Part shown: piece after piece, positions 58,138 through 61,480 of the stretch
Position numbering within the stretch: position 1 is the stretch's first letter
How the letters are laid out: every line of letters starts with the position of its first letter
The notes under the pieces: model-generated
What the model saw: only the letters and a program-made list of their open reading frames with translations
Told to the model about the DNA's origin: nothing
Database searches by the model: none
Origin: Longicatena caecimuris
GTDB taxonomy: Bacteria; Bacillota_I; Bacilli_A; Erysipelotrichales; Erysipelotrichaceae
Reading direction: 5' to 3'
Assembly (NCBI RefSeq): GCF_004341945.1
Contig: NZ_SMBP01000002.1
Location: forward strand, 124,001 to 188,000
DNA: 64,000 bases
Made by a program: the position numbers and the translations under genes

Positions 58138-58206
58138 AGAAAGGAAGCGTATATTGTAAGAATGACTGCTTAGATGCGTCATTATTCAGATATACCAGAT
58201 AATCAG

Positions 58207-58692
58207 ATGAAATTACGAAAATTACTGGCTGTATGGCTACTGTGTTTCGCTATGGCCGGCTGTTCTTCCAACGATAGCCCTTCCATGGAAGAAATCGATT
58301 TCCGTTTAGAAAATGCAGGATATGAAGTAACAGGCTATAAAGGCTCGGAAGATAAAATTATCGGTATGGTAATTATAAAACTCAATACAAAAATAACGTT
58401 AACGAATGAAAAAGGTAAATTGTCCAGCATTACGTATATGGATACGTTATCAAAAAATCAATATACCATTGATGTAACCAATGATTCTGCCATGTCCATC
58501 GTTAATCATAAACAGCAGGTATGCATGTATGATATTGAAGGTGGCAAGCAACAAAAAAATCCATCCATCTGTGATCAAAAGGATGAAGAACACGGCAAAA
58601 AATTGCATGATGATTTTTACGCTTTCTTAAAAGAACTTGATATTGATGTATCTGAATTGACGCAATATTACAACTGGTTTATGACGGATTAG
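58207..58692 (+). CDS. Small secreted lipoprotein of unknown function
   Basis: About 161 residues from the ATG at 58207. The N-terminus KLRKLLAVWLLCFAMAGC is a lipoprotein signal with the lipidated Cys at position 19. The mature part is polar (SSNDSPSMEEID) and matches no family I know. An upstream in-frame ATG at 58174 directly follows a TAG and would add 11 residues that do not suit a signal peptide; neither start has a good ribosome site nearby. Confidence 0.7.
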   Translation: MKLRKLLAVWLLCFAMAGCSSNDSPSMEEIDFRLENAGYEVTGYKGSEDKIIGMVIIKLNTKITLTNEKGKLSSITYMDTLSKNQYTIDVTNDSAMSIVNHKQQVCMYDIEGGKQQKNPSICDQKDEEHGKKLHDDFYAFLKELDIDVSELTQYYNWFMTD

Positions 58693-58993: not shown

Positions 58994-59377
58994 TCATTTT
59001 TTTTCACAAATCGTAATTTGGTCCTTTATGAAATCATAAAAATCTTCATATAATACAAATTGTATGGCATTCTCTTGTTCATAAGCAACATAACAAATAT
59101 CACGGCTGTCATAAATAATTTCATAGGCATCCTGCTTTGTATAGATGATTGATAAAGGTATTTTATAACGCGTTTTATTGCCGTTTACCATCTTATCTTC
59201 ATATGCATAATGCGTACTGACATAAACCGGATATGTTACAGACATGATCTGTATTTCACCTTTTTCAATATCCGGAAGATAAAAATCAACATCATCCTGC
59301 TCAATATAGGCATGAGGGAATTGCTGTTTCGCCGCCGTAAGTATCTTTTCTTTATCTAAATTCAAAAAACTTATCAT
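58994..59377 (-). CDS. Hypothetical protein, 127 residues
   Basis: Soluble, mixed alpha/beta composition with many Tyr and acidic residues (YVSTHYAYEDK, YDSRDICYVAYEQ). No signal peptide, membrane segment or recognised motif. A strong GGGGAGG lies before the ATG, so it is likely real. It stands alone between the lipoprotein gene and the small-RNA array. Confidence 0.6.
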   Translation of the reverse strand: MISFLNLDKEKILTAAKQQFPHAYIEQDDVDFYLPDIEKGEIQIMSVTYPVYVSTHYAYEDKMVNGNKTRYKIPLSIIYTKQDAYEIIYDSRDICYVAYEQENAIQFVLYEDFYDFIKDQITICEKK

Positions 59378-59431
59378 TTTTTACACCTCCCCATCATGGT
59401 AACATGATATCACATAACCATGGTTGGATTC

Positions 59432-59489
59432 CACATAATTTACCACAGATTCAACATACTTATCTGATGACTTTTTACTATACTATAGT
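59432..59489 (+). promoter_or_regulatory. Conserved promoter module of small RNA A
   Basis: A 58-bp block from CACATAATTT to TATAGT that aligns without gaps with the blocks before RNAs B and D. Shared parts: CACATAaTTT at the upstream end, ACTTaTCT (TTATCT as -35) and, 18 nt on, TATAGT. Confidence 0.65.
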
Positions 59490-59491
59490 CA

Positions 59492-59626
59492 GCAGGAAGG
59501 AACTAACCTCCTGCTAAGTATGACATATTTTCCCCTCAAAATTTCATACTTTCTCCCTTTCAAAAACATAATAATTTAAAGAAAAGAAACGAGAGCTTCC
59601 CCCTAAGTTCGCGTTTCTTTTCTTTA
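59492..59626 (+). ncRNA. Candidate small RNA A of a tandem family
   Basis: About 135 nt. A 5' hairpin (AGCAGG / CCTGCT plus AGG / CCT) is followed by AAGTATGA / TCATACTT enclosing a TTTTCCCCTC loop, a single-stranded TCTCCCTTTC, and a terminator of 14 bp (59578-59591 with 59612-59625) whose loop holds TTCCCCC. So three C-rich motifs are exposed, as in sRNAs that pair with Shine-Dalgarno sequences. Boundaries are predicted from promoter and terminator. Confidence 0.65.
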
Positions 59627-59894
59627 TCCTATGCAAGAGATGTCTATCTAGCCAAAGCCTCATCGCTATAGATAAAAAAAGTTATCTGTAAAGCCAGCAG
59701 AACATCACATAAGATTCTTCATACCTTCCTATTTCCATAGTACGAATAGAAAAAACCGCAGTTGCTATGATGTACCCTTAAAAGTCAGACCTAAAATCAA
59801 ACGATGGAAGGCCGATCAAAACATGGCTTTCCGTTGCAAATAAGCGATCCTTCTTTTCAGTTTCCCATAATTCAAAGAAAAACAATGCGATTTA

Positions 59895-59952
59895 CACATA
59901 ATTTTCCATACTCCTTACATACTTATCTCACATCTTTTTTGTATACTATAGT
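59895..59952 (+). promoter_or_regulatory. Conserved promoter module of small RNA B
   Basis: 58-bp block matching module A in length and spacing: CACATAATTT, ACATACTTATCT, an 18-nt spacer, TATAGT. Sequence 59627-59894 before it shows no gene or clear structure. Confidence 0.65.
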
Positions 59953-59953
59953 C

Positions 59954-60084
59954 AGCAGGAAGGGATATGACCTCCTGCGGTAAGTATGATGATTCCCTCA
60001 AAAATTCATACTTTCTCCCTTTCCATTTAATATACTATAATTTATCAAGCAAAAAAGACGTTTCCCCAAGTAACGTCTTTTTTG
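59954..60084 (+). ncRNA. Candidate small RNA B of a tandem family
   Basis: About 130 nt with the layout of RNA A: GCAGG / CCTGC hairpin, AAGTATGA / TCATACTT hairpin with a TTCCCTC loop, identical TCTCCCTTTC, then a perfect 12-bp terminator AAAAAAGACGTT (60051-60062) / AACGTCTTTTTT (60072-60083) with a TCCCC loop. Loop and linker sequences differ from A while the stems and C-rich motifs are kept. Confidence 0.65.
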
Positions 60085-60172
60085 TTGGATGTTCTATTTT
60101 ATAAGGCATATGCTTTTTATAAACTTCATAAAGTATTAGGATGAGCAGATTATAGATTTTTGTTTTAACCAA

Positions 60173-60225
60173 ATTCTTTCATCACAAATTTATAACTTAT
60201 GGATATGATGGCTTTTTATTATACT
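60173..60225 (+). promoter_or_regulatory. Diverged promoter module of small RNA C
   Basis: CACAAATTT, then TGATGGCTTTTTATTATACT, which matches module A (TGATGACTTTTTACTATACT) at 18 of 20 positions; the downstream TATAGT is changed to TAGGT. Confidence 0.45.
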
Positions 60226-60231
60226 AGGTGT

Positions 60232-60336
60232 GTGCAAAAGGATTTACCTTACCTATAGATATGACCAATTTTCCAAATGACAAATCACACTACTCTTTTC
60301 CATAAATTAAAGGAAAAAGGTACAACGCCTTTTTGT
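60232..60336 (+). ncRNA. Diverged fourth unit of the small-RNA array (C)
   Basis: About 105 nt. It keeps ATATGAC and ACTACTCTTTTCC at positions matching AGTATGAC and CATACTTTCTCCCTTTC of the other units, and a terminator AAAAAGG / CCTTTTT (60314-60334), but has lost the CCC motifs and the first hairpin is weak. It may be a decaying copy or one with a new target. Confidence 0.4.
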
Positions 60337-60389
60337 TTATGATTTGCTAAAAGAAAGAATACCTACCTCTTTTTTTCCAGAAAATTTCT

Positions 60390-60447
60390 CACATATTTTT
60401 ACATGATTCAACGAAACTTGTCTGACATCCTTTTATTATACTATAGT
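60390..60447 (+). promoter_or_regulatory. Conserved promoter module of small RNA D
   Basis: 58-bp block: CACATATTTT, ACTTGTCT (TTGTCT as -35), an 18-nt spacer, TATAGT; ungapped against modules A and B. Confidence 0.65.
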
Positions 60448-60449
60448 TG

Positions 60450-60575
60450 ACAGGAAGGAGTTCCTGTTAGAAGTATGACTAAATTTCCCCTCAAAGTTAT
60501 TCATACTTTCTCCCTTTCAAAATTGAGTTTGAGTTAAGAAAAGAAGTACCATCCCTCAGGTACTTCTTTTCTTTG
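60450..60575 (+). ncRNA. Candidate small RNA D of a tandem family
   Basis: About 126 nt. The 5' hairpin is ACAGGAA / TTCCTGT, a G-C to A-T change on both arms relative to A and B, which is compensatory. AAGTATGA / TCATACTT with a TTTCCCCTC loop, identical TCTCCCTTTC, then a perfect 15-bp terminator (60536-60550 with 60559-60573) with an ATCCCTCA loop. The terminator also faces the end of the convergent DUF554 gene. Confidence 0.65.
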
Positions 60576-60587
60576 TATAGATATAAT

Positions 60588-61301
60588 TTAGAAAATAAGC
60601 TGCATCAGCTCATATAATATCGGCACCAATAACGCAGGCAATAGATTGCCGATACGTATCTGTTTGCCAAAAAACAAATTAATACCGACACCAAAGATCA
60701 ATACCGATCCAACATAAGATAAGTTTTGAATCAAAGCATCAGAAAAAATAGGCGCCATGAAGGATGCCAGTAAGGTAATACCTCCTTGATATATGAGTAA
60801 TGGCAAGGCCGCAAAAATTACACCGATGCCTAATGCAGAAGCAAATACCATGGAGATAACGCCATCCAAAATAGCTTTTGTGATCAACATAGTAGGATCA
60901 TGAAGCAAACCATCCTGTAATGCCCCAACGACTGCCATAGCCCCCACACAAATAATCAGACTGTTACTGACAAAACCCTCCACAAAGCGGCTATCACTGG
61001 ATTTAGTTAGCTTCTTCAGATATTCTGCCAATGCCTCCATACGATCTTCTAGTCGTAATGCTTCTCCCAATAATGCCCCAATGCCTAAAGAAAAAATTAA
61101 CAGCATAGTTCCACCGGAGATAAGCGTTGCCCCGTCTACCTTCATCATGCCACTGATAGCACCGCTAATCCCTATAAACATTGTACAAAGCCCAAGAGCT
61201 TGCATCAACAAATCGCGCATACGGGAAGGCAAACCGCCTTTCACAAATAATCCGATACCGCCACCGATAACAACAGCTATTACATTGATGATCGTACCCA
61301 T
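60588..61301 (-). CDS. DUF554 family membrane protein (YdfK/YqgA-like)
   Basis: 237 residues with about six to seven membrane segments and the family start GTIINVIAVVIGGGIGL, then GIGALLGEALRLEDRME and a GVGINLFFGK segment near the end. The ATG at 61301 has GAGGG 8 nt upstream; the frame extends 38 codons further but without a site. Function is unknown for the family. Confidence 0.88.
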   Translation of the reverse strand: MGTIINVIAVVIGGGIGLFVKGGLPSRMRDLLMQALGLCTMFIGISGAISGMMKVDGATLISGGTMLLIFSLGIGALLGEALRLEDRMEALAEYLKKLTKSSDSRFVEGFVSNSLIICVGAMAVVGALQDGLLHDPTMLITKAILDGVISMVFASALGIGVIFAALPLLIYQGGITLLASFMAPIFSDALIQNLSYVGSVLIFGVGINLFFGKQIRIGNLLPALLVPILYELMQLIF

Positions 61302-61480
61302 GTCCCAAACCCTCTTTCTATCTTGTGTTTCACTGTACACGGAAGAAAAGTAATTGTCAACAAATATTTTCAAACATATGACATTTTCTTTCATATAACA
61401 TGAAAATAATATCATTTCATTTCCATCACCATGTAAATTTTGTCGTTTAGCTTAATCTGTAAGCGCAGAAACACATAGGC

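Follow-up and report, generated by a model that had tools for sequence, protein, structure and literature searches.

Tandem genes for a candidate family of C-rich, anti-Shine-Dalgarno-like small RNAs in Longicatena caecimuris and other Erysipelotrichaceae

Known C-rich small RNAs and the Longicatena array

The closest described systems are the LhrC small RNAs (sRNAs) of Listeria and the RsaE/RoxS sRNAs. LhrC binds the ribosome-binding site of lapB through three CU-rich sites, and the LhrC promoters carry a conserved element of the two-component regulator LisR (PMC4132741). The C-rich motifs of RsaE bind ribosome-binding sites (PMC6435200), the same was reported for RsaE/RoxS, and RoxS is activated by the two-component regulator ResD (PMC4409812). 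In an initial annotation, both systems were compared with a repeated, C-rich stretch of Longicatena caecimuris DNA, and the comparison proved apt in architecture. We know of no described trans-acting sRNA family of Erysipelotrichaceae, and no description of an sRNA from this family was found in the literature.

The window analyzed here is a stretch of 64,000 nucleotides of the L. caecimuris genome, and the array lies at positions 59432–60576 of its + strand. It consists of three intact repeat units (A, B, and D), each with its own promoter module, and fills the 1.2-kb gap between a gene for a 127-aa protein (58994–59377, minus strand) and a DUF554 gene (60588–61415, minus strand). The interval 59377–60588 holds a single, chance-like ORF of 59 aa, so the absence of a protein gene from about 59.4 to 60.6 kb was borne out. 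A predicted lipoprotein of 172 aa is encoded at 58174–58692; its sole Pfam match, to the poxvirus SECRET domain (E = 5e-5), is most likely spurious. The repeat was present where it had been annotated: a 72-bp promoter block and a CCCTC...TCATACTTTCTCCCTTTC block each occur three times in the window. A unit comprises a transcript of ~140 nt and a promoter of ~58 bp, and the units are not packed head to tail, as their spacing is 463 and 495 bp. Within each, the promoter block is followed by a 5′ hairpin (I), hairpin II, an unpaired stretch, a variable linker, and a strong terminator hairpin with CCC inside its loop. Hairpin II is formed by the stem AAGTATGA/TCATACTT with CCCTC in the loop (CCCUC as RNA), and the unpaired stretch after it reads TCTCCCTTTC in all three units, with the RNA core UCUCCCUUUC.

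In unit A, the promoter module (59432–59490, +) begins with CACATA at 59432, has related half-sites near 59442 and 59453, and carries the -10 box TATACT at 59479–59484. The predicted sRNA gene A follows (59490–59626, +; the start site is putative), with hairpin I at 59491–59515, the arms of hairpin II at 59516–59523 and 59544–59551 around the loop TTCCCCTC, the unpaired TCTCCCTTTC at 59552–59561, and the terminator stem, an inverted repeat, at 59577–59598/59605–59626. Unit B is composed of the promoter module (59895–59953, +; TATACT at 59942–59947) and gene B (59953–60085, +), in which the arms of hairpin II lie at 59982–59989 and 60006–60013, the unpaired stretch at 60014–60023, and the terminator hairpin, with the loop TCCCCAAGT, at about 60048–60085. 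Unit D has its promoter module at 60390–60448 (+; TATACT at 60437–60442) and gene D at 60448–60576 (+), where hairpin I is present, the arms of hairpin II occupy 60471–60478 and 60501–60508, the unpaired stretch 60509–60518, and the terminator arms 60536–60550/60559–60573 with the loop ATCCCTCA. Inverted repeats mark both A and D. The folds of A, B, and D were more stable than those of dinucleotide shuffles (z = -8.4, -5.9, and -5.4, respectively), and none of 200 shuffles was equally good. A covariance model scored them at 86.6, 73.2, and 71.6 bits, all three being in its training set, and gave at most 12 bits in the rest of the window.

The initial annotation had counted four sRNA genes. This holds for A, B, and D by fold and model score, but not for unit C (about 60169–60317, +), which consists of a promoter-like stretch and a remnant of the body. 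The promoter and body of C are collinear with those of A for ~150 bp (summed alignment score z = 10 against shuffles). However, both stems and both C-rich motifs are gone from its body, its fold is at the chance level of dinucleotide shuffles (z = -0.6), and no covariance model matches it. Unit C is thus best called a decayed copy, and the array consists of three genes and one relic. The A-to-B and B-to-C spacers hold no further decayed copies.

Distribution of the family and its promoter module

Exact or near matches to the core in related genomes revealed a three-copy array in one of them (G006), adjoining an apparent gene for ribosomal protein L13, and single copies elsewhere. A covariance model (R1) of seven copies, built on the transcript with the promoter left out, found more copies in G062 (an Erysipelotrichales isolate), G075, G078 (Amedibacillus dolichus DSM 3991, which has two copies), and G121 (an uncultured Eubacterium MAG). 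With the iterated models R2 and R3, the family reached 47 members in 31 of the 273 genomes of the GTDB family Erysipelotrichaceae, a Longicatena sp. MAG (G014) being another carrier. Model E-values are rough, since calibrations were short. Variants of the sRNA, some near and some remote, are preceded by this promoter module in about 20 related genera. R3 was scanned over Erysipelotrichaceae and the class was sampled with R2, therefore absence elsewhere is provisional. The class-scan matches outside the family (L163, L164, L165, and L167; E = 0.003–0.02) were rejected, as they have neither the promoter module nor the right terminator. In a pattern scan of named genomes, six of 11 contigs held no worthwhile model match. 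Three tandem units at locus L184 (positions 417–1510; G020), whose hairpin II loop (GCAAACCCCUAAUGU) is divergent and whose C motifs are weaker, may represent a third sub-type. Two near-identical short members with a 59-nt core and the loop UAUCCCUAU (L178 and L198) lie 7.7 kb apart on contig C7 of G122, whose genome is 4.3 Mb.

The sRNA is found at or near a thioredoxin gene in L. caecimuris (G000), G014, G062, and G075. In G062 and G075, it also adjoins what appears to be the counterpart of the 127-aa gene, and G000, G062, and G012 have a DEAD-box helicase gene in the vicinity. These shared neighborhoods point to vertical inheritance of the family with local duplication. Tandem copies and a decayed one might also be expected of a repeat without regulatory function, or of a mobile element, whose folding is fortuitous, but the copies per genome are few, the same neighborhood (thioredoxin or DEAD-box helicase gene) recurs in several genera, the units carry a promoter footprint and a terminator, and phage and plasmid collections gave no match to the family. 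This explanation is already disfavored by the conserved position and the promoter, and we consider it very improbable.

The promoter module is itself a conserved feature of these putative sRNA genes. In the first 14 members, the footprint is ungapped, conservation begins sharply 47 bp upstream of TATACT, and three half-sites follow each other in steps of 10–11 bp (periodicity at lag 21, z = 3.75). The same positions are used in the 31 later members, which were found with the transcript-only model: CACATA, with at least five of six letters matching, occurs at -47 in 22, at -37 in 16, and at -26 in 15 of them, against a background of 0.16 per position elsewhere. As the model did not contain the promoter, the half-sites independently confirm both the matches and the module. 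Activators of the OmpR/PhoB type typically bind tandem half-sites that are spaced by one helical turn and extend into a weak -35 box. The three CACATA half-sites are placed as those of a response regulator would be, and we regard them as a putative site of this kind. Elsewhere in G000, G006, and G075, apart from the sRNA loci, the promoter motif was counted about as often as the reversed-pattern control, and no regulon emerged. In G006, the region ~1.7 kb downstream of the three-copy array encodes a response regulator paired with a histidine kinase (L033:5213–7001), noted here for its position alone.

Conserved structure and C-rich motifs

Across genera, the stems are kept by compensatory changes, which agrees with the initial reading of the units as non-coding RNA genes. 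In an alignment of 45 distinct members, such changes affect both stems, 10 of the 13 pairs are altered on both sides, and 96.4% of the cells pair. The two-sided cells number 56; shuffles gave 13.9 and slid controls no more than 7. As the members share ancestry and were aligned by fit to the model, these values are counts and not probabilities. Covariation was also counted in earlier alignments of 14 and 16 members. At one position of helix I, GC, AU, UA, and CG are all seen. The RNA structure is under selection.

These changes also bear on whether the units encode short peptides, either as small ORFs or as a leader or toxin peptide with its start codon at the AUG in hairpin II. Units A, B, and D each have an AUG with the SD-like sequence AGGAAGG ahead of it, and ORFs of 19–20 codons are present in A and D. 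However, ORF length varies from 2 to more than 40 codons across members, neither frame nor stop is kept, the loop lengths differ by non-multiples of three, and an ATG is lacking at this place in some members. Compensatory changes keep the stems and not codons. The small-ORF reading was rejected on the lack of conservation of length, frame, and stop, and peptide coding in either form is scarcely credible.

The C-rich motifs of these putative RNA genes are conserved and predicted to be unpaired; they had been annotated, as had a promoter and a terminator for each unit. Within the unpaired motif, the CCC core is nearly invariant, and a YCCC-type motif is present in nearly all of the 47 members. 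A terminator-like hairpin was found in all 47; its loop contains CCC in 33 and lacks it in 14, and one loop reads UCCUC. The predicted probability of being unpaired is 0.81 for the unpaired motif, which is predicted to be partly paired in some members (minimum 0.03), and 0.99 for the C motifs of loop II, in comparison with 0.44 for the whole RNA. Two sub-types can be distinguished: sub-type 1, that of the array in the window, has UUUCUCCCUUUC, and sub-type 2 has UUUUCUAUCCCCUUA and, usually, CCCCUUA within the terminator loop. Both are present in L. caecimuris, G014, G062, and G075. The single sub-type 2 copy of L. caecimuris is unlinked, on another contig (G000:C7:4909–4984, minus strand; L182:1410–1485), and the promoter motif was matched there before any model found the copy. 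It has the promoter half-sites and lies near genes for a small winged-helix-like regulator and an XRE-type regulator.

Several copies per locus with identical repeated loop motifs could also serve to titrate a protein, as a sponge like the CsrA-binding RNAs does, with no mRNA pairing, and some copies indeed have GGA in the loop of their 5′ hairpin. However, GGA in these loops is not conserved (e.g., in G14, G75, and G121), for which a CsrA sponge was disfavored, and the invariant parts are the CCC motifs complementary to Shine-Dalgarno sequences. We therefore consider titration improbable and prefer mRNA pairing.

Proposed function and relation to LhrC and RsaE/RoxS

The C-rich motifs resemble the anti-Shine-Dalgarno tail of 16S rRNA. 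Units A, B, and D likely encode, in tandem, a trans-acting sRNA of ~130–140 nt that belongs to a new Erysipelotrichaceae family and blocks Shine-Dalgarno sequences without Hfq. We hypothesize that a response regulator of the OmpR/PhoB kind binds the three direct CACATA half-sites upstream of the promoter and so probably switches the sRNA on, and transcription would stop at the sRNA's own terminator. The RNA would then display C-rich single strands in the hairpin II loop, the UCUCCCUUUC stretch, and the terminator loop, and these may pair with the G-rich ribosome-binding sites of target mRNAs. Translation would be blocked, or the mRNA marked for decay, with Hfq not required. Extra copies could provide a higher dose and more diverse loops. 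Hfq gave no match in seven carriers, while the control search found it in Escherichia coli and Bacillus subtilis.

Candidate targets were searched for by sequence pattern only. The seed complement followed by a start codon was commoner in L. caecimuris than the reversed pattern; such sites were found in all seven carriers searched and exceeded the reversed-pattern control in most. Antisense matches to the sRNA genes themselves account for part of this excess, and SD-like words are in any case to be expected close to an ATG. Candidates with the exact seed are few, and the genes behind them differ between genera and are not orthologous, therefore no target is claimed, and the regulon hub of partly redundant members suggested in the initial annotation is a hypothesis.

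An Rfam scan at gathering and relaxed thresholds gave no convincing match to the units, in line with the initial annotation, which recognized no known family; STnc50, snoRNA, and miRNA matches were rejected as low-complexity chance. The LhrC model (RF00616, gathering threshold 110 bits) matched neither the window nor the L. caecimuris genome, a weakly controlled result with no Listeria among 14 controls. Like LhrC1-5/Rli22/Rli33-1 of Listeria, which form a tandem cluster with unlinked members, the sRNAs are multicopy: three tandem, one decayed, and one unlinked of sub-type 2. Both families have three C-rich sites (hairpin loop, unpaired stretch, and terminator loop), here in A, B, and D, the third one being limited to the 33 of 47 members noted above. 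Both have a conserved promoter element, that of LisR in Listeria and the direct half-sites of a putative response regulator here. LhrC also acts without need for Hfq. Unlike LhrC, the Erysipelotrichaceae family has an added 5′ hairpin, a different hairpin II stem, and two seed sub-types.

The resemblance to RsaE/RoxS extends to the order of parts, in which a C-rich loop, an unpaired C-rich stretch, and a terminator follow each other, with the motifs UUUCUCCC and AUCCCCUU. RoxS has a two-component activator (PMC4409812), and one is suspected for the present family, for which pairing of the C-rich regions with ribosome-binding sites is likewise proposed. The family differs in its extra 5′ hairpin, tandem copies, and two sub-types in one genome. 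The RsaE consensus stretch UUUCUCCCAUCCCCUUU contains the motifs of both sub-types, each of which carries one half, and reads like both overlaid. The sRNAs could on this account be highly diverged true homologues of RsaE/RoxS under a ResD/SrrA-like regulator, with the same mechanism by common descent, for which the part order, the hairpin II stem closing straight onto UUUCUCCC, and the ResD activation of RoxS also speak. However, the RsaE model (RF01820, gathering threshold 79 bits) gave 19.5 bits on unit B and left 20 loci that hold other members without a score, the extra 5′ hairpin sets the family apart, and C-rich low-complexity motifs can converge. We regard homology as unlikely, and shared descent with RsaE as a possible lead rather than a test. 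It is also doubtful, though conceivable, that a single ancient Firmicutes lineage of anti-Shine-Dalgarno sRNAs, OmpR-type-regulated and capable of acting independently of Hfq, gave rise to the Erysipelotrichaceae family as well as to RsaE/RoxS and LhrC, and that its Erysipelotrichaceae branch diverged into two seed classes with the mRNA pool divided between them. The sRNAs are filed here as a new family of a known kind, which neither the LhrC nor the RsaE model of Rfam recognizes.

As a third case of the LhrC/RsaE design, the family would help to decide between common descent and convergence. Moreover, as a family that combines two seed classes with tandem dosage and a common promoter code, it would make Hfq-free control of mRNA testable in a cultured gut bacterium, A. 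dolichus DSM 3991.
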